The translations under genes and the position numbers were made by a program. The notes under the pieces are model-generated. The model did not search any database, was not told the origin of the DNA, and saw only the letters and a list, made by a program, of their open reading frames with translations. Shown in pieces: positions 112 through 63,818 of a stretch of 64,000 nt of DNA; the stretch's first letter is position 1, and each line of letters begins with the position of its first letter. The DNA lies in contig LR026961.1 of assembly GCA_900498135.1 (NCBI GenBank), positions 4,643,435 through 4,707,434 of the forward strand. Direction: 5' to 3'. The stretch is from an uncultured Desulfatiglans sp. (lineage in GTDB: Bacteria; Desulfobacterota; DSM-4660; Desulfatiglandales; Desulfatiglandaceae).

Positions 112-1638
112 TCACACTCCGGGCAGAAAAATAGAGAAGGTGGTGCCCTGTCCGGGATGGCTGGACACCGAAATGTCCCCCCCGTGGGCCTCTACCAGTT
201 TGAAGCAGATGGACAGCCCCAGCCCCAGGCCCTTGTGCCTGGTGGTGTAGAAAGGTTCGAAGATCCTCTCGAGGTCACCTTCCGGAATCCCGCGCCCTGT
301 ATCGCTGATCTCTATCCGTGCTCCTCCTCTCCCGCGCCGGGCCGAGAGCTTGAGGGTTCCTCCTTCTCCCATGGCCTCCAGACCGTTGCCTACGATATTC
401 AACAAGACCTGCTTCACCTTGTCGGGATCGCAAAGAATCGTGAGCGGCTCCGTCTCCTCCTCGAGAACGAATCGAAAGGTCCCCGGGGGATGCAAGGCGG
501 ACATCACTCCTGCCACCTCCTTCAACAAACTGTTGATGTCCGTCGGTTTTTTCACCAACCGGTACTGCTTGGTAAAATCCCCCAGGTCTGCGACGAGGCG
601 CTCCAACCGGCCGATCTCTTCGAAGATCAAATCGAGCTTGCGCACCGCCTTCTCGTCGGAGAGGGTCTCGCGGATCTGGCGGGAAAACCCCCCGATGATC
701 ATCAACGGATTCTTGATCTCGTGGGCCACCTGCGCCACCGTCTGCCCAACCGCAGCCAACCGTTCATTCTGGAGAAGCTTTTTCTCCATCTGCCTCTTTT
801 CGGAGATATCCCGGAGGATCGCCGTGTAGGTCGGTTCGCCCTCTATCAGTTGATAGGAGATCCCCATCTCGACGGGAAAGGATTCACCTCCTTTTCGAAG
901 GACCGAGAGGGACAAGGGCCTCCGCAGGTGCTTCGGCCTCTTCGCCGAAAGAAAGCGTTTCAATTCGTGATAATCTTCCGCCTGCTGCGGGGGAATGAAC
1001 AGTCCGATTTCTTTTCCGAGCACCTCCCGGCGGCTGTACCCGAAAAGCCGGCAGGCGGCGTCGTTGAAATGGATGATCCGCTGATCGGCGTGAAGGCTGA
1101 GGATCGCATCGGTCGCCGTCTCGAGGATGATGCGGAATTTCCTCTGGGATGCCTTGACCCTTCGGACCAACTGGCGGCGCGCGGTTTCATCCCGAGTAAT
1201 CTGCACAAAATACCGGGAGGCATCGCCCTGACCGCGCACCGGATAAACGAGTCGGACGATCTCGCGCATCCTCTCCCGCCGCGCGTCGAACACCCGGTTG
1301 ACCACCTCGACCCGCTGGTCCGACTTGCGGGCGCGCTCCAAATGACAGACATCCGTCCGGCACGCCTGTTCGCTGCAAAACCCCGAAGCGACCTCGTAGC
1401 ACTTGCGGCCGATCACCTGCTCTTTCGGTAAACGCAGGCGTCTCAGGAAGCTCGGGTTCGCGTCACGGATCACAAAATCCGCGTCCACCACCATGATCTC
1501 TTCTTGAATCCCTTCAAACAAGGTTTTCAGAACCAGGTCACTGACGCCGGCGCCCTCCATGTCGGCGGCTTCATCACCGGGGGCCCGCTCCGGCATTCCG
1601 GTTGCGGATGAAAAAACCTTATCATTTTCATCACTCAT
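112..1638 (-). CDS. PAS-domain sensor histidine kinase (soluble)
   Basis: A 508-residue cytoplasmic two-component kinase with no membrane segment. PAS 1 lies at about residues 36-155 and carries four cysteines (C80, C88, C93, C98). PAS 2 lies at about 165-285. The dimerisation/phosphoacceptor helix has AHEIKNP with His306. The ATPase domain is intact: N box NIVGNGLEAM near 414-423, G1 DTGRGI near 446-451, F box EPFYTT, G2 GLGLGLS. I chose the ATG at 1638, which overlaps the stop of the upstream gene; the reading frame stays open further upstream, but only inside that gene. The two genes are therefore probably co-translated. No response regulator is visible; one could lie beyond the left edge. 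The ligand is unknown. The Cys-rich insert suggests redox or metal sensing, which is inference. Confidence 0.9.
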   Translation of the reverse strand: MSDENDKVFSSATGMPERAPGDEAADMEGAGVSDLVLKTLFEGIQEEIMVVDADFVIRDANPSFLRRLRLPKEQVIGRKCYEVASGFCSEQACRTDVCHLERARKSDQRVEVVNRVFDARRERMREIVRLVYPVRGQGDASRYFVQITRDETARRQLVRRVKASQRKFRIILETATDAILSLHADQRIIHFNDAACRLFGYSRREVLGKEIGLFIPPQQAEDYHELKRFLSAKRPKHLRRPLSLSVLRKGGESFPVEMGISYQLIEGEPTYTAILRDISEKRQMEKKLLQNERLAAVGQTVAQVAHEIKNPLMIIGGFSRQIRETLSDEKAVRKLDLIFEEIGRLERLVADLGDFTKQYRLVKKPTDINSLLKEVAGVMSALHPPGTFRFVLEEETEPLTILCDPDKVKQVLLNIVGNGLEAMGEGGTLKLSARRGRGGARIEISDTGRGIPEGDLERIFEPFYTTRHKGLGLGLSICFKLVEAHGGDISVSSHPGQGTTFSIFLPGV

Positions 1639-4620: not shown

Positions 4621-5006
4621 GGGTGCCTTCAGGGCGCAGGAAGGGTTCGCAGTGGATTTGCACGGTCAAGTCTGAAGATATCAAAGAAAAGCGTTCAATG
4701 CAACGACGGACCTGGAAAGGCCGGAAACCCGAGGGTGAACGCCCTCGTTCCGGACCCGGCGCAAGACCTTTGCCCGTATCCGTTTCCGGCCGGCAAAAAA
4801 TAACAGTCATGCCAGGAATCTGAATTCAACCTTTGAAAGTACGTCCCGAAGCGAACAGGTTGAAGGTTTGAGTTGAACCAGCGATCTTGGAAACGAAGAC
4901 ACCCTGATCCGGGAGGGAGGCCTTGAAATGCAGGAATTGAAGATTATTTTGTAAATCCAAGCCCCTGACGCCTATCTGCCCGGAAAGGGGCAGTCAGCGG
5001 CACCAT

Positions 5007-5142
5007 TTTCCCAATCCAAGAACGAGCCTCTTTCCAGATTCGGGAAATCGAGCGTTCGCCTGGAGGCGGCCCTTAAGCCACCCGCCAGGCTAAGAGCACC
5101 TTGTCTCCCGGATCGGCAAACAAGACCCTTTCCGGGTGGGAC
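5007..5142 (-). repeat. diverged copy R0 of the dispersed long-hairpin repeat
   Basis: This lies in the 565-base gap between the M24 peptidase start and the RNase gene. It aligns over its whole length with the other copies: CCAATCC arm, GGGAAATCGAGCG, central hairpin, CGGATCGGCAAACAAGACC, TTTCCGG. In the forward (minus-strand) sense the central structure is GCCTGG..GGTGGC-TTAAGG-GCCGCC.CCAGGC. Both sides of the outer stem differ from the other copies yet still pair. No gene is seen in the rest of this gap. Confidence 0.7.
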
Positions 5143-5185
5143 CGGATCCGAAAACCTTTTCATCCCTATACGGACTTAACCACTT

Positions 5186-12448: not shown

Positions 12449-12623
12449 GTTTCCATTCCGGAAATGAGGATTTTGTGCCAATCTCAAGGAAATCAAGCGT
12501 TTGCGCGGAGGCGACCTGGTGGTCGCCGCACAAGCAAACGTGCAGATTGACGCCGAGATTGGCAAAAAAGACCATTTCCGGACTGGAAACCGGGTTGTAC
12601 CGGGAAATCATTTCCGGATGGAG
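12449..12623 (-). repeat. dispersed long-hairpin repeat, copy R1
   Basis: The core is at 12449-12590 and an extra end module runs to 12623. The arms are GTTTCCATTCCGGAAATG and CATTTCCGGACTGGAAAC. The central stem-loop is GGCGACC-TGGT-GGTCGCC. It fills the space between the hydratase gene start and the amidohydrolase gene end, whose stop is 8 bases beyond the repeat. Confidence 0.9.
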
Positions 12624-12630
12624 ACCAGGA

Positions 12631-14320: not shown

Positions 14321-14486
14321 TTCCTCCCGGAAAATCTCCGTACCAATCAGCCAACGCTAACTCCCCCTTCCTCCCGGAAAATCTCCGCACCAATCAGCCA
14401 ACGCAAACTCCTCCTTCCTCCCGGAAAATCTCCGTACCAATCAGCCAACGCAAACTCCTCCTTCCTCCCGGAAAATCTCCGTACCA
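14321..14486. repeat. 47-bp tandem repeat, about 3.5 units
   Basis: Units begin at 14321, 14368, 14415 and 14462, exactly 47 bases apart. Each opens with TTCCTCCCGGAAAATCTCC, and the last unit stops after about 25 bases where repeat R2 begins. The units are nearly identical, so there are no spacers. The gap 13989-14320 otherwise shows no gene. Confidence 0.92.
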
Positions 14487-14607
14487 GAAATGAGGATTTT
14501 TTGCCGAGATCAAGGAAATCAAGCGTTTGCGCGGAGGCGACCTATAGGTCGCCGCACAAGCAAACGTGCAGGTTGACGCAGAGATCGGTAAAAAAGACCA
14601 TTTCTGG
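14484..14607 (-). repeat. dispersed long-hairpin repeat, copy R2
   Basis: The arms are CCAGAAATGAGG and CCATTTCTGG, altered on both sides so that they still pair. The central stem-loop is GGCGACC-TATA-GGTCGCC. It ends eight bases past the priA stop and abuts the 47-bp tandem array on its other side. Confidence 0.9.
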
Positions 14608-14615
14608 GGCGGAAA

Positions 14616-17051
14616 TCAGAGCATTTGATAGGGATCGACATCCACGGCCACCTGCACCCCGGCCGGCGGCGTCCTCACCGCTTCGCCCATCCTTTCGAGG
14701 AGATGCTTCAACGCTGCTATCTTACGGCCCTTCAGAAGAATCTGCCAGCGGTAGCGGTCCTTGATGCGCGCTATGGGGGCCTCCACCGGTCCCATCACCT
14801 GAATGGCCTCTTCCCGCCCCGCGATCCCGTTCACCATACGCCGGAAACCCGCCCCCAGCTCCCCCGCACAGGCCACCGTTTTCGCCCGGTCCTTCCCTTG
14901 CACCCGGATGCAGACCAGGTGGGCGAAAGGCGGGTAGCCAAGAGCGGACCTCAGCGCAGCCTCACGCTCGAAGAAGCCTTCGAAATCATGGGCCATCGCC
15001 GCCTGCAAGGCATAGTGGCGGACATTGAAGGCCTGGATAATGACCTTTCCCGGCCGGTCTCCGCGACCCGCCCGTCCGGCCACCTGGCTCAGGACCTGAA
15101 ATGTGCGCTCGGCCGCCCGGAAATCCGGAAAGTTCAGGAGAAGGTCCGCCGCGATCACGCCGACGAGGGTCACCCGAGGGAAATCGTAGCCTTTTGTCAC
15201 CATCTGGGTGCCGACCAGGATGTCGATGGCCTGCTCTTTGAACTGCTTGAGAATCTCGAAGGACACCCCCTTCGCCCGGGTGTTGTCGGTGTCCATGCGC
15301 GCCACCCGGGCCGAAGGGAAGAGACTCCGCAGCTCGAGTTCGAGTTTCTGGGTGCCGAACCCGTAAGTCTTGATCGCGTCGCGGCCGCATTCCGGACATG
15401 TCTGCGGAACGGGCCCCGTAAAGCCGCAATAATGGCAACGAAGTTCACGCCCTCCCAGATGGTGGGTCAGGGCCACGTCGCAGTGCGGGCAACGAAGGGA
15501 GCGCCCGCAGGCGCTGCAGACATGCAGCCGGTGAAACCCCCGCCGATTGAGAAAGAGGATCGCCTGGGACTCTTCTTCCAGGGTCGCCTTCAGCGCCTCC
15601 CGCAGTTCTCGGCTGAGCATGGCGTCGGCGGGATCGGAGGCCGAACTCCGCGTCATATCCACGATCTCGACTCTCGGCAAGGCCCTTTTTTCCACGCGCT
15701 CCGGCATCGAGAGCATCCGGTAGCGGCCCGCGCAGGCATTGCGGAAGGACTGCACCGACGGCGTCCCAGACCCCAGGAGCACGGTCGCCTGCTCCATCTT
15801 TGCGCGCATAACGGCGGTGTCCCGGCCCTGGTAACGGACCCGGTCGTCCTGTTTGTAGGCGGCGTCATGCTCCTCGTCGACGATGATCAGGCCGAGGCGC
15901 GGCACAGGCGCAAAAAGGGCCGAGCGAGCGCCGATCACCAGATCGATCTTCCCCTCCGACATCTGCAGCCAGGCGTCGAAACGCTCCCCCCTGCTGAGCC
16001 CGCTATGGTAAACCGCGACGCGATCGCCAAGCCGCAGCCTGAAAACACCCTCCAGATAGGCCGCTAGCGCTATCTCCGGAACCAGGACGATCACCTGCCG
16101 GCCGATACGGATCGCCTTTTCCGCCGCGCGGACGTAGACCTCGGTCTTCCCGCTGCCGGTCACACCATAAAGGAGCGCGGGGGCGAACACACCCGATTCG
16201 ATGCTCCCCTCCAACCATGCCAGCACCGTTTTCTGGTCCTCGTTCAGCGCAAAGGGCCCCGCCGGCACCAGTGCGGTTCCGCCTCCTGGGCTTCGAAAAA
16301 CCGGGGCGGTAAAGGCCTCGAGCACCCCTTTCCGAACCCACTTTCGAACGAGGTAGTCTCCGTTGGGGAAAAGCGCACAGATCCGGCTGAGCGCCGCATC
16401 GCCCCGGTCCAGGAAGATCCGCAGGAACTCCTGCTCGTTCGCGGCGCCTGCCCTGCGGGCGCAAACCGCAGCTGCAGCCTCCAGACCGGCGCGATCCTTC
16501 ACGCAGACAAACCGCCGCAAAAGCCGGCTCACACGCCCGGACCTCCGCCCTGTCCCCAGGCTCACCCAGCCTTTTCGCACCAGAGGATCGACCTGTTTCG
16601 CAGACCAGGGCAGTTTGGCGCCCGGATTTCCGCCGATCCACCCCAAGATCTCTCTTGCGGGGTCTTCAGGCGGCAGACGCTTCAAGGCACGCTCGCCTGC
16701 TTTGGTCAACACGGCGCATCGAAAAGGGTTTACGTTGAGGCCGGCCGGCAGCACACTCTCGATGACCTGTCCGGGCGGGTGAACATAGTAGTCCGCCATC
16801 CACTCGAACAGGGGCACCATTGCGGAACCGAACAGGGGGGGCTCGTCGAAGATCCGTCGAATCTCTTTGAGCTCCATGCCCGATTCGTTCCCGTCCTCGG
16901 ACAGGATGAACCCGGTCACCGTACGTCTCCCGAAAGGGACCAGGACGCGCCGCCCCACCTCGGCCGGGGCGGCCAACGACGGGGGCACGCGGTACGTATA
17001 CGTCCCCCACACGGGGGCGCACACGGCGATCTTTACGCATCGAGCGGCCAT
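14616..17051 (-). CDS. priA: primosomal protein N' (replication restart helicase)
   Basis: An 811-residue PriA. The N-terminal 3' DNA-binding and winged-helix regions cover about 1-270. Walker A is GVTGSGKTEVY, the DEAH-type box is IIVDEEHDAAYKQ, and RYQGRDTAVMRA follows. Eight zinc-binding cysteines sit in CSACGRSLRCPHC and CHYCGFTGPVPQTCPEC. The C-terminal helicase motif includes LSQVAGRAGRGDRPG. It restarts stalled replication forks. The length is somewhat over E. coli PriA (732 residues). The Shine-Dalgarno is weak. It is the last gene of the leftward cvpA-mazG-mtgA-kinase-plsC run. Confidence 0.94.
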   Translation of the reverse strand: MAARCVKIAVCAPVWGTYTYRVPPSLAAPAEVGRRVLVPFGRRTVTGFILSEDGNESGMELKEIRRIFDEPPLFGSAMVPLFEWMADYYVHPPGQVIESVLPAGLNVNPFRCAVLTKAGERALKRLPPEDPAREILGWIGGNPGAKLPWSAKQVDPLVRKGWVSLGTGRRSGRVSRLLRRFVCVKDRAGLEAAAAVCARRAGAANEQEFLRIFLDRGDAALSRICALFPNGDYLVRKWVRKGVLEAFTAPVFRSPGGGTALVPAGPFALNEDQKTVLAWLEGSIESGVFAPALLYGVTGSGKTEVYVRAAEKAIRIGRQVIVLVPEIALAAYLEGVFRLRLGDRVAVYHSGLSRGERFDAWLQMSEGKIDLVIGARSALFAPVPRLGLIIVDEEHDAAYKQDDRVRYQGRDTAVMRAKMEQATVLLGSGTPSVQSFRNACAGRYRMLSMPERVEKRALPRVEIVDMTRSSASDPADAMLSRELREALKATLEEESQAILFLNRRGFHRLHVCSACGRSLRCPHCDVALTHHLGGRELRCHYCGFTGPVPQTCPECGRDAIKTYGFGTQKLELELRSLFPSARVARMDTDNTRAKGVSFEILKQFKEQAIDILVGTQMVTKGYDFPRVTLVGVIAADLLLNFPDFRAAERTFQVLSQVAGRAGRGDRPGKVIIQAFNVRHYALQAAMAHDFEGFFEREAALRSALGYPPFAHLVCIRVQGKDRAKTVACAGELGAGFRRMVNGIAGREEAIQVMGPVEAPIARIKDRYRWQILLKGRKIAALKHLLERMGEAVRTPPAGVQVAVDVDPYQML

Positions 17052-20920: not shown

Positions 20921-21712
20921 TCACACCCTTTCCTTCCGAATGCCCTGCCACACCTCTGCCTTCCTCTCTCTCGGAACGGCATCGAGATCCAGGCCCTGGC
21001 TCTTGAAACGGCCCTCCACGCGCTCCACATCCTCCTGAAACCTCCGATTCGACAAGCGCAGGAGGTCTTCCGCATGGACACCGCTCACCCTCGCCAGAGC
21101 AGCCAACGAGAACAGCAGATCGCCCATCGCCTGATCGAACCCGCCGCCACCGGCCACCGCAAACTCCAGAGACCGGAAATCCTTCCGGGCCTCATCCAGC
21201 AAGGAATCGGCGTCCCCCGATTCCAGGCCGTATTTCGAAGCGCGCTCCGCCATGCGATGGGCCCTCATGAGAGCCGGAAGGTGCACGGGCACGCTGTCGA
21301 GCAGCGAGGCGGCCGAATCGGCCCCATGGTTCTCATGCTTCTTGATCTCCGCCCAGTTCCGGGCGACCTCTTCGGCATCCTCCACTTGCGCTTCGCCGAA
21401 GACATGAGGATGCCGGCGGATCATCTTCTCGATGATCCCGTCGAGCACGTCCAGCACGTCATAGGCCCCTGTCTCCGATTCGATCCGGGCCATGAACACG
21501 ATCTGAAAGAGGAGATCCCCCAATTCCCCGCAGACATCCTGCGGATCGCCCTTCTCGACCGAATCCACCACCTCGTAGGCCTCTTCGAGGAGATACCGCT
21601 TGATGCTGTCCACCGTTTGTTTCGCATCCCACGGGCACCCGCCGGGCGAGCGCAGCCGGTCTATCAGCCGGCACAGTTCGATGAAACGCTTTCCAATGCT
21701 GTCCCAATCCAT
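20921..21712 (-). CDS. mazG: nucleoside triphosphate pyrophosphohydrolase MazG
   Basis: A 263-residue tandem MazG protein that hydrolyses NTPs or dNTPs to monophosphate and pyrophosphate. The N-terminal domain begins RLRSPGGCPWDAKQT, then LLEEAYEVVDSV and GELGDLLFQIVFMARI supply the EExxE and ExxD metal ligands. A second MazG-like domain occupies the C-terminal half (GDLLFSLAALARVSG). The ATG at 21712 is preceded only by GGAAG. A frame running further upstream translates repeat R3 and is rejected. It sits in a run with cvpA and mtgA. Confidence 0.92.
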   Translation of the reverse strand: MDWDSIGKRFIELCRLIDRLRSPGGCPWDAKQTVDSIKRYLLEEAYEVVDSVEKGDPQDVCGELGDLLFQIVFMARIESETGAYDVLDVLDGIIEKMIRRHPHVFGEAQVEDAEEVARNWAEIKKHENHGADSAASLLDSVPVHLPALMRAHRMAERASKYGLESGDADSLLDEARKDFRSLEFAVAGGGGFDQAMGDLLFSLAALARVSGVHAEDLLRLSNRRFQEDVERVEGRFKSQGLDLDAVPRERKAEVWQGIRKERV

Positions 21713-21719
21713 ATTTAGC

Positions 21720-21893
21720 TTCCATCCGGAAATGATTTCCCGGCAGAACCCCGTTTCCATCCGGAAATGGTCTTTTTGGCCAATCTCGGCGTCAATCTGC
21801 ACGTTTGCTTGTGCGGTAACCTGCAGGTCGCCTCCGCGCAAACGCTTGATTTCCTTGATATTGGCCAAAAATCCTCATTTCCGGATTGGAAAC
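21720..21893 (+). repeat. dispersed long-hairpin repeat, copy R3, inside the cvpA-mazG run
   Basis: An extra end module (21720-21752) is followed by the core at 21753-21893, with arms GTTTCCATCCGGAAATGG and CCGGATTGGAAAC. The central stem is partly worn (GGTAACC-TGCA-GGTCGCC). It starts 7 bases from the mazG start and ends 3 bases from the cvpA stop, so it fills the whole gap. Confidence 0.92.
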
Positions 21894-21896
21894 TAT

Positions 21897-22448
21897 TTAT
21901 TTCGCTTCGGACCGGTCCGGCTCTCCGGATTCGCCGCCGGTCCATTTCTCCCCCCGGAACTTTCTCTTCCACTGTTCATAGGTCTCCGACGGTATCTGCC
22001 CTGCCACGAACTGGCAAGACCGGACGACCCAGGGATACAGCTTCGACTGGGTTACAACCGGCGAGGCCGCCGGGACGAAAAAGTTGATGATCACCATACC
22101 GAGATAAAGCACCACCATTCCCTTGACAAAGGCTACGGCCACTCCCAGAGCGCGGTCGAGCCAGCCGAGGAAAACCTTCTTGAATGCCGCTTTGAGAGCC
22201 AGGCTGAGCACATTGCAGGCAACCATGATCGCCAGCATGATCAGGGCGAAACTCAGCAGAGAGAGAAAAGGCCAGTCCGGAAGAAACCCTTTGAGAAGAC
22301 CCGTCAGATTCGCCTCGAACCGAAAGGCGGCGAGGAGCCCAAGCACGACCCCCGCGAGTGATCCGACCTCACGGAAGAAACCACGGAAAAGCCCTCTGAC
22401 CAACAGAAAGCCCATCAACGCTATGATCAGAATGTCCAGCCAATTCAT
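21897..22448 (-). CDS. cvpA: CvpA family membrane protein
   Basis: A 183-residue inner-membrane protein of the colicin V production family. It opens with the typical NWLDILIIALMGFLLVRGLFRGFFREV and has four hydrophobic segments at about 5-20, 25-45, 62-85 and 102-123, then a charged tail. The biochemical role of the family is unclear; it is linked to envelope homeostasis. It is the first gene of the leftward run toward mazG, and a plausible promoter lies about 160 bases upstream. Confidence 0.85.
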   Translation of the reverse strand: MNWLDILIIALMGFLLVRGLFRGFFREVGSLAGVVLGLLAAFRFEANLTGLLKGFLPDWPFLSLLSFALIMLAIMVACNVLSLALKAAFKKVFLGWLDRALGVAVAFVKGMVVLYLGMVIINFFVPAASPVVTQSKLYPWVVRSCQFVAGQIPSETYEQWKRKFRGEKWTGGESGEPDRSEAK

Positions 22449-34876: not shown

Positions 34877-35150
34877 GGAATGGAAATGATTTCCCCTCAG
34901 AACCCCGTTCCCAATCCGGAAATAAGGATTTTTCTTCACACGCGGGGCGTGCTCAGTCCCACCCCTGCGGGGCGGGTCCCGGTTCTTCGCACCCTTCGGG
35001 TGCTCAGCCCCTTGTTTCCCGGCAAATCCGGTTTGCCCCATATCAAGGGAATCAAGCGCTTGCGCGGAGAGGCGACCTGCAGGTCGCCGCACAAGCAGAC
35101 GTGCAGATTGACGCCGAGATCGGCCAAAAAGACCATTTCCGGATGGAAAT
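34877..35150 (-). repeat. dispersed long-hairpin repeat, copy R4, interrupted
   Basis: An end module at 34877-34909 and a left arm near 34911-34934 are separated from the rest of the core (about 35035-35150) by about 100 bases of foreign sequence. The central stem-loop is intact: GGCGACC-TGCA-GGTCGCC. The insert begins TCACACGCGGGGCGTGCTC, and a similar stretch occurs at 36813. This copy also carries two extra bases (GGAGAGG) next to the stem. Confidence 0.85.
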
Positions 35151-36558: not shown

Positions 36559-36750
36559 GATTCCTCCTCCATCGGCTTTCCGATCTTGCTGCCATCCAGT
36601 CATAGACCGCTCCTTTTCTTCACCGCCTTCGGGTGCCGGCATACACTATATCGGCGCAGATTCAGGCCTGCTCAACCGTTTCGCCGGCACATGGCGCTGA
36701 CGGAGGTGCATTCTCCAAGGCCATGCCGCCTCCCTCCTTACTGCCCGGTG

Positions 36751-36853
36751 TCCATCCGGAAAGGATCTCCCGCTGGAATTTCTTTTTCCATCCGGAAAGG
36801 AGAATCATTAGGTCACACGCTGCACGTGCTCGGTCCCCCGCCTGCGGGGCGGC
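36751..36853. repeat. fragments of two dispersed repeats
   Basis: 36751-36810 holds two TCCATCCGGAAAG units spaced about 38 bases apart, like the end module of the long-hairpin repeat. 36813-36853 (TCACACGCTGCACGTGCTC onward) matches the insert inside copy R4. The rest of the gap 36559-37003 shows no gene. Confidence 0.7.
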
Positions 36854-38458: not shown

Positions 38459-38535
38459 CGGGGCGTGGCGCAGTCTGGCAGCGCACTTGCTTTGGGAGCA
38501 AGGTGTCGCAGGTTCAAATCCTGCCGCCCCGACCA
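38459..38535 (+). tRNA. tRNA-Pro (anticodon TGG)
   Basis: A 77-base cloverleaf with acceptor CGGGGCG/CGCCCCG, D arm GCGCAG..GCAGCGC, anticodon stem CTTGC-TTTGGGA-GCAAG with anticodon TGG, T arm GCAGG-TTCAAAT-CCTGC, discriminator A and an encoded CCA. All stems pair. The following 375 bases up to the IS element hold only an unconvincing open frame. Confidence 0.97.
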
Positions 38536-38900: not shown

Positions 38901-40403
38901 AATAATCATTCAATGTCATTGACTTAAGAGAACGCTGATCATGTTTTTACTTGTAAATATAATAAATTATGCTATTATACCCTCAGTAGAAAACGGGGCG
39001 TATATTACTTTTCAAGGAGGCGAGATATGTTTACAGAAAAATTTGATGAAAAGACTGCGGTTGGCACAGAAGGTGCTTTCCAGAATTTGTGCCAAACTTG
39101 TCGGATTTCTCAATAAATATCTTGACTCTCCTGATTTTTTTCACCGACATCGTCTGTGTGAAAAATATTTTTCTCGCAATCGTAAACTCCCCTTCAGCAC
39201 CGTAATACTTTTCCTCATGAATTTCGTCCGCTGCTCCTTACAAAAGGAACTTGACGGGTTCTTTCAACTTTTTCCGTCTTCCGATCGCTCCGAAAGAAAG
39301 GTTACCGCTAGCGCGTTCTGTCGAGCCAGACGCAAAATTTCTTTCGAGGCTTTTGTTGATCTGAATCAGAGACTGCACTCCTTCTTTTATCAGTCCTTCC
39401 CTGTTCGGCGCTGGATGGGATTTCGTCTGCTGGCTGTCGACGGATCTACCTTGCGTGTCCCTGACAACGATGAGACCAGAAAGTTCTTTGGCGTTTGGCA
39501 TCCCGCCAAAACCCGGAAACCCTGCCCTTTGGCCAGGGTCTCGTTGCTCTACGACGTCTTGAATCGTATCACCGTTCATGCACTCATGGTTCCTAAAGGG
39601 GAAGGTGAACGCTCATTAGCCGCTAAACACGTGCAGAATACCGGTGAAGGCGACCTTCTTCTTCTCGACCGGGGATACCCCGCATACTGGCTTTTTGCCC
39701 TGATCCTCAACCGGGGCTCTCAATTCCTTTGTAGGATGAAAAAGGATTCAGATCTTGTCAAAGAATTCCTCCGCTCCGGAAAGCGCGAGGCTATCGTCAC
39801 CCTTAAACCGTCGCCCGCCGCCATAAAATTCTGCCAAGAGAAGAACTTGAGCACCAACCCCCTGAAAGTTCGCGTCCTCCGGTTCACATTGAAAAACAGG
39901 GTAAAGGTCGTTCTTTTGACTTCCCTCCTTGACAAACGCCAATTTCCTTTGGCTGAGCTCAAAGAGCTCTACACCAAGCGCTGGTCTGTGGAGACCGCCT
40001 ACAGCCATCTCAAATGCCGCATCGAAATGGAGAACTTCTCGGGAAAATCTCCCCTCGCTGTCCTCCAGGATTTCCACGCGAGAGTTTTGACAGCCAACCT
40101 GACTGCCATGATCGTTCATCCAGTTCAAGATCTTATTGAGGAGCAGGCCAAAAAGCATCCCGAACGACTCAGGTACCAGGTCAACTTCACCTATGCGCTT
40201 TCGTCTATGAAAAGCAACGTCGTGCTCCTCTTTGCCCGGCGACACATCACAAAAATCCTTCGAAGCCTCCTCTCGCTCCTCGGTAAGTCTTTATCGATTA
40301 TACGACCAGGCCGGAAGAATCCCAGAAAGAGAGGGCCGAAACTGAAAATTGCCGCTATGGCCTACAAGCCCATAGCTTAAGTCAATGACATTGAATAATC
40401 ATT
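38901..40403 (+). mobile_element. IS4-family insertion sequence, complete, with 10-bp target duplication
   Basis: The element is 38911-40393 (1,483 bases). The ends are perfect 18-bp inverted repeats, CAATGTCATTGACTTAAG at 38911-38928 and its complement at 40376-40393. They are flanked by the direct repeat AATAATCATT at 38901-38910 and 40394-40403. Ends and duplication are unmutated, so insertion looks recent. The base composition is more AT-rich than the surrounding chromosome. Confidence 0.95.
38941..40380 (+). CDS. IS4 family transposase
   Basis: A DDE transposase of up to 479 residues. The catalytic Asp residues are in AVDGSTLRVPDN and LLDRGYPAYWLF. The IS4 signature Y-x2-R-W-x2-E-x6-K appears as YTKRWSVETAYSHLK. 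The stop codon lies inside the right inverted repeat. The start is unclear: an AAGGAGG site at about 39014 serves an ATG at 39027 in another frame, while in-frame ATGs are at 38941 and 39046. Either a +1 shift, a lost base or a less usual start is needed. Otherwise the frame is intact. Confidence 0.9.
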   Translation: MFLLVNIINYAIIPSVENGAYITFQGGEICLQKNLMKRLRLAQKVLSRICAKLVGFLNKYLDSPDFFHRHRLCEKYFSRNRKLPFSTVILFLMNFVRCSLQKELDGFFQLFPSSDRSERKVTASAFCRARRKISFEAFVDLNQRLHSFFYQSFPVRRWMGFRLLAVDGSTLRVPDNDETRKFFGVWHPAKTRKPCPLARVSLLYDVLNRITVHALMVPKGEGERSLAAKHVQNTGEGDLLLLDRGYPAYWLFALILNRGSQFLCRMKKDSDLVKEFLRSGKREAIVTLKPSPAAIKFCQEKNLSTNPLKVRVLRFTLKNRVKVVLLTSLLDKRQFPLAELKELYTKRWSVETAYSHLKCRIEMENFSGKSPLAVLQDFHARVLTANLTAMIVHPVQDLIEEQAKKHPERLRYQVNFTYALSSMKSNVVLLFARRHITKILRSLLSLLGKSLSIIRPGRKNPRKRGPKLKIAAMAYKPIA

Positions 40404-48182: not shown

Positions 48183-48464
48183 GCCCGGGCTTCCTTTTGC
48201 TTCTTCTCGCCCCCTCTCCTTCCTCCTGTTTCGAATAGATCGAACCACCTTTTCGCTTCGTTAAAAGCAGACGGCTCGATACGAATTCGTTTCCATCCTA
48301 TCAGCAGCCCCAGCCCCTGAACGAAGGGCCGCCGCGTCGCCGTTCATCGCGAAGATTTCATTTGCATTGACATGATGCGGATTACTCTGATAACGGTTTA
48401 AAGCGATAGGTACTTTTTACACTCTGTCCCGGAATGATCCCGGCATGGCAAGAGGAGAAACCAC

Positions 48465-51527: not shown

Positions 51528-51667
51528 TGCCGATTGCGAACGGCCAGTATCCCAGCACCCGGCCCCGCGCGAACCGTTTCATCCGTGAGGGCTCTTTTCC
51601 GGCAATCGCGCGGCGTACGCGTCCGACCGTATAGGCGGCCCTGTGCCGCCGTGGCATAAGCGGCCGG

Positions 51668-51711
51668 TTTTCTTGATCTTGGGGCAACGTCCTCATTTCC
51701 GGATTGGAGCC
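51668..51711 (+). repeat. partial copy of the long-hairpin repeat (one arm)
   Basis: TTTTCTTGATCTTGGGG and CCTCATTTCCGGATTGG match one outer arm of the forward-oriented repeat; the centre and other arm are missing. It sits in the gap between the dehydrogenase and porin genes, which otherwise shows no gene. Confidence 0.75.
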
Positions 51712-51887
51712 CCGCTTGCTTTGGACGATCGTTTCCGCAAGGACACGAGCCGGCTGATTTCCACCTCGCATAAACTGCGTGCCCCAGAGGCCGTCCGTCG
51801 TGGTGCTGGCTGCAGGGACACCCCATGGCGGCATCCACCAGGAGGGGCACCCTTTCCTCTGCGATCACCACGGGTATGGAGGTCTCA

Positions 51888-54441: not shown

Positions 54442-55638
54442 TCACGCCGGCACCTCCTGCCTTTGAACCTTCCTCAAAGTTTCGAGCTGGTAGAGCAGGT
54501 AAAGTAGAACACACCCATTGGCAGCGAGGATCGCCCCAAGGATCAGCCCCGGGATCAGGTTGGAGACAAGCATCGTCGTGCCGAAGAGAATAGTCAGGAT
54601 GTTCATGAGAAGGAGCGCGGAGTCGATCTTGATACGGATCGGCGGGATCGGCCCGCCGGACTTTCTCTCCTTCAGCAACGGCAGACTGACCTTTGCGATG
54701 GTGACAATCCCCCCGGCTATGTTGAGAACGCCGACCATGAAGGTCAGCGCTACGACCAGGATACCGGGGATGATGCAGGAGACGATTCCAAGCCCCCCGA
54801 AGACGAATCCCAGCAGAATGACGAGCCAGCTTCTCTCGAAGGCCCCGATCGGCGTGCTGCCGACCGCCAGCATCTGGATGCCGAACAGGACCATCAGAAG
54901 ACCGAGTTGGGCGCTCGGGGAAAACGGGATCAAACCGAGGTTCACCGGCAGGAGCAGAAGCCCTAGAAGCAGCATGAAAACGCCCATCATCAGCAGCATG
55001 GCATTGTCCAGGGAAAGGCCCGTCGCGCTGTCGGAGGCTTGACCGGCCGGGGGATGGCGCCGGCTGATTTTCTGCAGCACGCAGGCCAGGTAGACGAGTG
55101 CAAGACCATAGAGAAGGGCGGCGGAAGCGACCAGGGAACCCGGCACGAGGTTTGGTTTGAAGATCAGCACCGCAATCAGGATCTGTACGAGGTAGACCGT
55201 ACAGCATGCGACGATGAGGTAGTTGAAGATGCCGCCGTAGGTTCTCCAAAGCCGCGCTTTGTCTTTGACAAGGACCATCTGCAGCAGAAGGAAAAGACCG
55301 CCCACCCCGAACAACAAGGTGAGGAGCATGCGGGGGACATTTCCAAGCAGGTCCGGGATGAAGCAGGTGACAATCCCGACAGCCGCCACAGTTATCCCGC
55401 AGAACATGACGGGCCCGTTGCGCTTGAAATCGCCGAACGGTGTTTTTCCCATGGCGACGATCTGGAAGGCGAATATGACGAGGAGAAGCCCGAACAGGCC
55501 GTTTTCGTAGTATGGGAGGACCCCTGCGTAAACGGGGAAAAGAAGAATGCCCAGTATAAGCATGGCCATCCCTCCGAAGAGAAGGATGACGACCTCCATG
55601 GAAAGATCGGCTGCCTGAAAAAGCTTGGATTCCACCAT
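54442..55638 (-). CDS. integral membrane protein with internal duplication
   Basis: A 398-residue protein with about ten to twelve hydrophobic spans and no recognised catalytic motif. Its two halves align: LLFGGMAMLILGILLFPVYAGV/MLLMMGVFMLLLGLLLLPVNLG, then FQIVAMGKTPFGDFKRN/IQMLAVGSTPIGAFERS, then GIVTCFIPDLLGNVP/GIVSCIIPGILVVAL. It vaguely recalls HdeD/DUF308 proteins, but I am not sure. The frame is intact, unlike the broken paralogue at 63.4 kb. No partner gene is adjacent. Confidence 0.75.
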   Translation of the reverse strand: MVESKLFQAADLSMEVVILLFGGMAMLILGILLFPVYAGVLPYYENGLFGLLLVIFAFQIVAMGKTPFGDFKRNGPVMFCGITVAAVGIVTCFIPDLLGNVPRMLLTLLFGVGGLFLLLQMVLVKDKARLWRTYGGIFNYLIVACCTVYLVQILIAVLIFKPNLVPGSLVASAALLYGLALVYLACVLQKISRRHPPAGQASDSATGLSLDNAMLLMMGVFMLLLGLLLLPVNLGLIPFSPSAQLGLLMVLFGIQMLAVGSTPIGAFERSWLVILLGFVFGGLGIVSCIIPGILVVALTFMVGVLNIAGGIVTIAKVSLPLLKERKSGGPIPPIRIKIDSALLLMNILTILFGTTMLVSNLIPGLILGAILAANGCVLLYLLYQLETLRKVQRQEVPA

Positions 55639-55778
55639 CCGTTCCTTATCCGTCCGGCCAGAAGGTCATACGGCCGATGCCCTGGTTGGAGGTGTTTCTA
55701 TATGGAATCTGACGTTAATCAAACAACAGTTCTTATACCATTGAACCGATTTCGCCAAGATTTTCGCAGAGTCGCTTG

Positions 55779-55809: not shown

Positions 55810-56183
55810 CCAGTTCTTTGCTGAAAATGTGGTATTGCATTTATTTATCTCCTTTGTGCTAAATGCGTTTAAGCCATTAGCCATAAACTGCCGGAAAACC
55901 AAAACTCTTTCCTTGGCTCCGAATCGAAACAGCATCCATGGTCAACCGCTCAGTAACCTCTTTGCAATCGGCTACAGCCGTTTCGCATTTCATTCCCCGT
56001 ACACGAAGCATCCCCTCCCGAAATCCTTTTCGAACGGTGCGATTTATGAACTTCCCGATCCTTTTTAAAGGAGGATTTGATTCTAAAATTCATGTTATTG
56101 GCTATATGATAGGCTTTTAATACGGCGTGGAAGCATTCAGATAGGCTCATGTCTTCCCAGGATTTTCCCAGTATACTTAGATA

Positions 56184-56359
56184 GTTTCCATCCGGGAATG
56201 GTCTTTTTGGCCAATCTCGGCGTCAATCTGCACGTTTGCTTGTGCGGCGACCTGCAGGTCGCCTCCGCACAAACGCTTGATTTCCTTGATATTGGCCAAA
56301 AATCCTCATTTCCGGATTGGAAACTGAGTTCTACCGCGAAATCATTTCCGGATGGATAC
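56184..56359 (+). repeat. dispersed long-hairpin repeat, copy R5 (best preserved)
   Basis: The core is 56184-56326, plus an end module to 56359. The arms GTTTCCATCCGGGAATGG and CCGGATTGGAAAC extend inward through TTTTTGGCCAAT and ATTGGCCAAAAA. The centre is TTGTGC-GGCGACC-TGCA-GGTCGCC-TCC-GCACAA, a 13-bp stem with a three-base bulge. It lies between the membrane-protein and glycosyltransferase genes. Confidence 0.93.
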
Positions 56360-56438
56360 TAGATAACCGATAAGGACATAGGGAGAATCGCGAACGGGTT
56401 GAAGGATACTGGAGATGTCTTGCCAAAAAAATACCTCA

Positions 56439-63030: not shown

Positions 63031-63424
63031 TCACAGCCCCTGGTGCGGTCGGCGGATGTTCTAGAACTCGAAGTAGGCCCGAAGGCCGTCGATCTGGTCC
63101 GCTACCGTCTCGTATTCCCTGATGTAAATGTCCTCCTACTTCAGCGAGCGCCATAGACGTTCGACCATGATATTGTCTGCCGCACGCCCTTTGCCGTCCA
63201 TGCTGATTGTGATTCCGTGGTCGCTTAACACCCCGGTAAAAGCGGCTCCGGTATACTGCGATCCCTGATCCGTGTTGAAAATCCCCGGCTTCGGATACCG
63301 TCTCGGAGCCCGCTCGAGGCTGCACACGCAGAAGCTCTCATCCATGGTGACCGACACTTCCCAGGATAGAACGTAGCGGCTGTACTAGTCCATCACAACC
63401 GTCAGATGCACAAATCCGCCCCGA
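63031..63424 (-). pseudogene. IS3-family transposase (OrfB) remnant
   Basis: The C-terminal part of an IS3 OrfB integrase: VHLTVVMD-stop-YSRYVLSWEVS, FNTDQGSQYTG, NIMVERLWRSLK, then stop-EDIYIREYE and NIRRPHQGL. The second Asp and the Glu of DDE are present. The reading frame is unbroken except for three TAG codons at positions where relatives have Trp, Tyr and Tyr. The 5' part is missing, replaced at the joint by a membrane-protein fragment. Confidence 0.85.
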
Positions 63425-63751
63425 AGAAGACCATCAGAAGGATGCGGGGAACCGTCCCCAAGAGGCCTGGAATGAAGCAGGTGACAATCCCCACCGCCGC
63501 GACGATGACTCCACAGTGAACCGATACTGCCGATCTCTGTATGTCCCCGAAAGGGGTCTTTCCCATGGATAGGATCTGGGGGCGAATGCGACGAGCATCA
63601 TGCCGAAAAGACCGTTTTCATAGTAAGGGAGAATACCTGCGTATACCGGAAACAGGAGAAGGCCCAGGATAAGCATGGCCATTCCCGCAAACAGAAGGAC
63701 AACGACCTCAAGGGAAAGGTCGGCCGGTTTTAAAAGCCTGGATTGCGCCAT
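63425..63751 (-). pseudogene. truncated, frameshifted paralogue of the duplicated membrane protein
   Basis: It starts MAQSRLLKPADLSLEVVVLLFAGMA, close to the gene at 54.4-55.6 kb (LFQAADLSMEVVILLFGGMA). Near 63,587 a one-base change shifts the frame; the other frame resumes with QILSMGKTPFGDIQRS and GIVTCFIPGLLGTVP. It then ends at the junction with the IS3 remnant, about one quarter of the way along its homologue. Confidence 0.85.
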
Positions 63752-63818
63752 CTGCTTCGGCCTTCTCCCGCTCTTGACCACCATCGGATTTTCGTTGGGC
63801 AGCTGTGTGTTGCTCGTT

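Follow-up and report, generated by a model that had tools for sequence, protein, structure and literature searches.

A MITE with a conserved hairpin core and a likely ISNCY-family partner in the genome of an uncultured Desulfatiglans

The window analysed here, a stretch of 64,000 nucleotides (64 kb) from the genome of an uncultured Desulfatiglans sp., harbors copies or remnants of a dispersed hairpin repeat at approximately eight places. These copies, designated R0 to R5 where they had previously been listed, and one associated remnant are as follows.

4972-5143, minus strand: R0, degenerate copy (covariance model score, 32 bits)
12449-12625, minus strand: R1, MITE copy common to the sister genome G001, without an intact target duplication
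14478-14616, minus strand: R2, MITE copy without an intact mini-hairpin, common to G001
21718-21893, minus strand: R3, MITE with the mini-hairpin on its left, TATTTA at 21712-21717 and 21894-21899
34877-35150, minus strand: R4, MITE copy, one arm of which is interrupted by GC-rich modules (module at 34932-34981)
36749-36811, minus strand: degenerate fragment, the right part and mini-hairpin of one copy
48290-48299 (approximate), no strand assigned: GTTTCCATCC remnant where G001 has a MITE (comparison with G001)
51575-51746, plus strand: degenerate copy
56184-56359, plus strand: R5, intact 176-bp MITE with TAGATA on both sides

An earlier sequence-only reading of this DNA had described six copies and two further fragments (at 51668 and 36751), of which R1 to R5 do lie at or near the positions that it gave; R1, R2 and R4 are, however, older or altered copies, R4 carrying the inserted modules, while R0, which possesses neither intact arms nor the GGCGACC stem, and the two fragments are degenerate.

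The complete unit is composed of a hairpin of approximately 142 bp (hairpin 1), a 6-nt spacer and a 29-nt mini-hairpin which has inverted ends of its own. In R5, these parts are arranged as follows.

56178-56183, no strand assigned: left copy of the target duplication, TAGATA (sequence)
56184-56324, plus strand: hairpin 1, whose outer arm is like the right end of the insertion sequence described below (sequence and folding)
56194-56313, plus strand: conserved core of approximately 120 nt, present alone in other genomes (comparison)
56246-56263, no strand assigned: central stem, GGCGACC-TGCA-GGTCGCC (sequence)
56325-56330, no strand assigned: 6-nt spacer between the hairpins, TGAGTT (sequence; relatives compared)
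56331-56359, plus strand: 29-nt mini-hairpin, bearing the outer right terminal repeat (sequence)
56360-56365, no strand assigned: right copy of the target duplication, TAGATA (sequence)

DNA folding of the element returned a z of -7.8. The central stem had been reported as constant around a variable tetraloop (TGCA, TATA or TGGT), and this was confirmed with the exception of R3, whose stem has GGTAACC. The spacer of many relatives looks like a target site (TAGCGA and similar), as though an element had inserted next to a second one and both had thereafter moved as a unit. A GC-rich module of approximately 50 bp, single or tandemly repeated, is found at a constant position of the right arm, and 24 of its 25 sampled occurrences were in or beside a MITE copy; in the window, this module, which comprises two small hairpins, is located at 34932-34981 and 36813-36852.

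The sequence-only reading had anticipated hundreds of copies in the genome if they were spread uniformly, and the family is indeed real and larger than was stated. The terminal repeat GTTTCCATCCGGAAATG, with up to two mismatches, was matched 248 and 240 times (488 matches) in the 4.8-Mb genome, versus once and once for the reversed control, while a covariance model identified at least 150 full or near-full copies genome-wide, the weakest listed having an E value of 6e-15. Because approximately eight places carry copies in a window that was not picked for them, several hundred copies, remnants included, is a fair guess, this total being an estimate and not a count. The copies had all been described as intergenic, which is mostly the case: according to a simple gene caller, the 58 sampled copies comprise 44 intergenic ones, 11 that overlap the end of a gene and 3 within a gene, whereas random 176-bp stretches fall inside genes 64% of the time. 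Within the genome of the window, no orientation bias relative to genes was apparent (15 versus 13). Enrichment between divergent genes was significant by gap number, yielded a P value of 0.06 by bases, and is not claimed; strand-specific insertion governed by replication was rejected, the strand excess along the chromosome not being significant (P = 0.29). Tandem arrays of two to three MITE cores, with a period of approximately 142 to 149 bp, were observed at three places (G000:C1, 3015755-3016212, 3536505-3536965 and 803217-803531). Separately, window positions 55302-55639 and 63416-63752, approximately 8.1 kb apart, are 72 to 77% alike and hold overlapping open frames without a Pfam match.

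The 176-bp element is non-coding and is bounded by terminal inverted repeats (TIRs) of approximately 17 bp, GTTTCCATCCGG...GGATGGAAAC. Exact 6-bp duplications, with the consensus TANNTA, flank 9 of 32 copies in this genome, against a mean of 0.25 after shuffling, and 23 of 66 in relatives, against a mean of 1.4, while no 4- or 5-bp duplications were found around either set. Inspection of empty sites, one of the checks proposed at the outset, was informative at R3, where the sister genome G001 has a single TATTTA and this genome has TATTTA-element-TATTTA. We are, therefore, confident that the repeats represent a MITE, as the sequence-only reading had suggested, the element being short and non-coding with TIRs, generating a target duplication of fixed length and sharing its ends with an autonomous element that encodes a transposase. 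The remnant near 48290 was considered as a further empty site, yet a deletion in this genome, between repeats of 10 bp, accounts for it better. In G001 (locus L029, G001:C53), the right flank of R5 (window position 56360 onward) is joined via a MITE to the left flank of the insertion sequence copy L055, a junction which reflects either a rearrangement at repeats or a misassembly.

A search for a transposase sharing the arm sequence, also proposed at the outset, identified a candidate partner. Among the 20 loci of the genome which encode a PF01609 transposase, MITE ends are present on both sides only at three copies of the type designated P0001; these are copies of one insertion sequence (1,693 to 1,698 bp; mutually 92 to 95% identical in DNA), whose 455-amino-acid transposase matches the ISNCY model of NCBIfam, NF033593, with 446 bits against a cut-off of 325. 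One copy has an in-frame TGA in its transposase gene, and one copy in this genome is flanked by an exact TAAATA duplication. Across seven copies from five genomes, exact 6-bp duplications were observed at four, three of them being TAATTA duplications of relatives in three other genomes, and homologous transposases across the sampled phylum are associated with GTnnCCATCCGG-type ends adjoining TANNTA-like hexamers. ISNCY-family insertion sequences (ISDol1 group) are among the closest known systems, having this transposase family, a length of 1.7 kb, and ends and a 6-bp target duplication as in the MITE. The right end of the insertion sequence in this genome agrees with the left arm of the MITE over approximately 25 nt with few mismatches; the hairpin core is absent from it. 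Since this insertion sequence has both the ends and the target of the MITE, we infer that an ISNCY-family transposase of the same genome is likely to move the element. In genome G016, the ends of the insertion sequence and of the MITE (GTGTCC versus GTTTCC) are one base apart.

Beyond the genome of the window, the association is less evident. A P0001-like transposase (E ≤ 1e-40) was found in 13 genomes, of which 3 are among the 54 that carry the repeat (approximately 1.8 expected by chance), a count to be read in light of the fact that draft assemblies hide multi-copy insertion sequences; most repeat-carrying genomes have no visible partner transposase now, and a scan of genome contigs with the transposase protein found no relative. 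The small number of repeat hosts with a partner gene weakens a phylum-wide link between the MITE and this transposase. At locus L210, two ISNCY insertion sequences lie side by side with a common TAATTA target, a layout similar to that of the two hairpins of the MITE. In the window itself, a PF01609 transposase gene at 38941-40380, close to a tRNA gene (38459-38532), lacks MITE ends and belongs to a different insertion sequence.

With regard to known systems, a covariance model search of Rfam at gathering and permissive thresholds found no match for the element, and the statement that the family has no recognized name holds for Rfam and for the literature searched; its core, however, corresponds to a family presented in a supplementary figure for Geobacter metallireducens (PMC2700814). 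In that genome paper, 24 "predicted short RNA elements" (Gmet_R1005 and others; Additional file 4) are reported, in 2009, as an intergenic RNA family which has the central palindrome GRCGTAGCGCTGCTACGCC, is located near lysine/arginine genes and before dapL, and has relatives in three other species (PMC2700814). The same palindrome, a 19-mer, is present at 19 loci of the genomes with stand-alone cores described below, and the dapAB-dapL position is matched by a core between dapB and an aminotransferase gene at locus L323, whereas the centre of the MITE in the window has diverged (GGCGACCTGCAGGTCGCC). As the core was seen in G. metallireducens in 2009, it is not new; the accessible text of that account does not mention terminal repeats, target duplications or a partner transposase (PMC2700814), nor does it contain the MITE form, the spread, the support for the structure or the stop-codon placement. 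Judged by description, the element also resembles the enterobacterial repetitive intergenic consensus (ERIC), a high-copy intergenic imperfect palindrome of similar size whose interior is conserved across families, and the Chunjie MITE of Geobacter uraniireducens (178 to 235 bp), which is similar in size and belongs to the same phylum (PMC10969869). Unlike ERIC, the element displays 6-bp TANNTA duplications, and an insertion sequence of its genome is a candidate partner. The features of an integron attC site were not found, the RYYYAAC and GTTRRRY boxes not being seen by eye and the copies being dispersed in host operons and not arranged as a cassette array.

The core or the whole element was detected in 54 of 395 genomes sampled from the phylum. 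Between genera and families, the MITE is 65 to 94% identical and mostly 175 to 187 bp in length, and in two genome pairs its DNA shows conservation no lower than that of the transposase gene (71 to 74% versus 65% identity). Across the 39 base pairs of the structure, 96% of cells are paired, and 13 pairs changed on both sides, versus 5.8 in shuffles; among 44 stand-alone copies, 14 pairs occur in three or more Watson-Crick types, with up to four per pair. A conserved 27-mer was found in records named as Desulfobacterales, Desulfobacteraceae, Syntrophaceae, Geobacter, Desulfuromonadales and, in one case, Nitrospinae, as well as in records named just Deltaproteobacteria or Proteobacteria, while searches of phage, plasmid and viral collections returned no match to the queries used. 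We propose that selection for the folding of a single strand has kept the core across the phylum.

In several families, the inner 120 nt or so are found without terminal repeats. A second model, built for this stand-alone core, identified 22 to 78 copies per genome in six genomes and 2 to 3 in two more. In 20 longer stretches from six genomes, the left-hand gene reads towards the copy for 53 of all 61 copies, and 42 of the 52 copies with a sense gene on the left (one MITE-form copy left out; simple gene caller) start within 8 nt of its stop codon, which may be TAA, TGA or TAG; seven of the more distant copies are later members of tandem arrays. The arginine-lysine cluster of G361 is illustrative, in that copies follow argB, argF, argG, a NUDIX gene and dapB, the dapB copy being followed directly by the gene for LL-diaminopimelate aminotransferase, the order described above for L323. 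G361 and G146, which are species of the same genus, share stand-alone positions, and the MITE and stand-alone forms coexist in both. The presence of a conserved core directly behind stop codons in relatives suggests a role besides hitch-hiking, from which we infer that the core may have a function of its own.

The strand on which this fold is maintained was assessed from wobble pairs, using structures folded without them so as to favour neither strand. For the stand-alone copies (n = 44), the plus strand has 76 A-C cells and 17 G-T cells; the corresponding counts are 54 and 13 for a mixed set and 72 and 24 for MITEs. Of these three sets, 43 of 44, 23 of 24 and 32 of 36 copies, respectively, fold better on the minus strand. 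In the mixed set, 17 of the 54 A-C cells come from two columns, while those of the stand-alone set are derived from 25 columns; the bias is clear on strand-neutral structures and no clear bias is seen when the structure is fitted to the plus strand. The signal is weaker in the genome of the window, as the plus strand folds better in 3 of 8 copies checked. Most stand-alone copies have their minus strand opposite the operon, so the wobble pairs suggest that foldability is maintained on that opposite strand, and single-stranded DNA is as possible as RNA. The asymmetry may fit single-stranded DNA or antisense RNA better than an mRNA hairpin, although a location behind stop codons is reminiscent of REPs, which act on mRNA (PMC12306157). 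The earlier suggestion of an RNA structure is thus retained in so far as the core appears to be under selection for a single-strand fold, and is qualified as to the molecule.

Taken together, we consider it very probable that the element is a MITE moved in trans by an ISNCY-family transposase and that it contains a conserved, structured core which exists in two settings. In the proposed mechanism, the ISNCY-family DDE transposase, encoded elsewhere in the genome, would recognise the ends GTTTCCATCCGG and move the 176-bp element in trans via its outermost ends, insertion at TANNTA duplicating six bases and the two hairpins, joined by 6 nt, transposing as one composite. The core of approximately 120 nt would be either packed in the MITE or located alone directly behind stop codons inside operons, where it may exert a REP-like effect on the upstream message, by analogy with the nearest known model. 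In E. coli, REP hairpins located no more than 15 nt from a stop codon are reported to cause ribosome stalling and reduced translation (PMC12306157); the core differs from these in its length (approximately 120 nt versus short), in having no RAYT link and in that its folded strand is opposite to the message.

It is plausible that a functional core was captured by, or is descended from, a MITE. That a host element, be it an RNA or a single-stranded DNA site, was captured by insertion sequence ends and later fused with a mini-MITE is a reading to which we give a little less than even weight: the stand-alone form occurs in several families, including within the arg-dap cluster (argB, argF, argG and dapB), the family match in G. 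metallireducens extends to the position before dapL (PMC2700814), and the 6 nt between the hairpins are target-site-like in many relatives, although stand-alone copies were found in some families only.

Conversely, the core could be the ancient interior of a MITE with no function of its own, the stand-alone copies being MITEs which inserted at stop codons and later lost their ends. TANNTA overlaps TAA and TAG, the latter being re-created by the G with which the element begins; among MITE-form left ends with a long open frame nearby (n = 44), 9 frames terminate precisely with this junction TAG and 8 with the first codon of the hexamer, the corresponding numbers for right ends being 4 and 3, and in other families most of 20 MITE copies are likewise located at stop codons. 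The coexistence of both forms in G361 and G146 is also in keeping with such a descent. We nevertheless regard it as unlikely, since the stand-alone copies lack the same 10 nt between stop and core, and decay would not be so uniform; they use TAA and TGA besides TAG; their positions are conserved between these two species; and neutral decay would destroy pairs which occur in up to four Watson-Crick types.

Still less probable is a non-coding RNA which is transcribed from the strand opposite to the operon and has multiplied as a mobile unit: this is favoured by the wobble asymmetry and by the better folding of the minus strand in all three sets, yet single-stranded DNA would give the same asymmetry, no conserved promoter was seen by eye outside the core, and the copies in the window's genome have no orientation bias relative to genes (15 versus 13). 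Mobilisation of REP-type repeats by a RAYT (Y1 transposase), which the sequence-only reading had also offered, can be set aside as highly improbable, because, while high-copy hairpins near stop codons resemble REPs and GTAG often precedes the stand-alone copies, the MITE form has target duplications and terminal repeats, a core copy lies beside just one of 30 Y1-transposase loci, and no Y1 match was found in G361 (77 copies), G207 or G340.

Returning to a MITE with a functional core, we tentatively envisage a phylum-wide structured element which would act on one strand alone, directly behind stop codons in operons and against the direction of their transcription; a MITE would have taken it up and multiplied to hundreds of copies, in which the fold is still maintained, such that a transposon may carry and distribute a functional site. 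MITEs and REP-like gene-end hairpins are each of a known kind; to our knowledge, their combination is new in the literature searched, and it brings together two separately noted things, a MITE that has a present-day candidate transposase and a conserved hairpin found where genes end in numerous Desulfobacterota and Geobacter-like genomes. Should the core prove functional, ready-made sites for gene-end control or recombination would be distributed across genomes by a mobile element. Because the wobble pairs point to the strand which is not transcribed with the operon, the hairpin also represents a clear test case for RNA versus single-stranded DNA. Finally, at one stand-alone locus (L256, positions 132-236, minus strand), a sub-threshold match to the TPP riboswitch (36.9 bits versus a cut-off of 54.3) overlaps the end of the core, on the folding strand of the latter.
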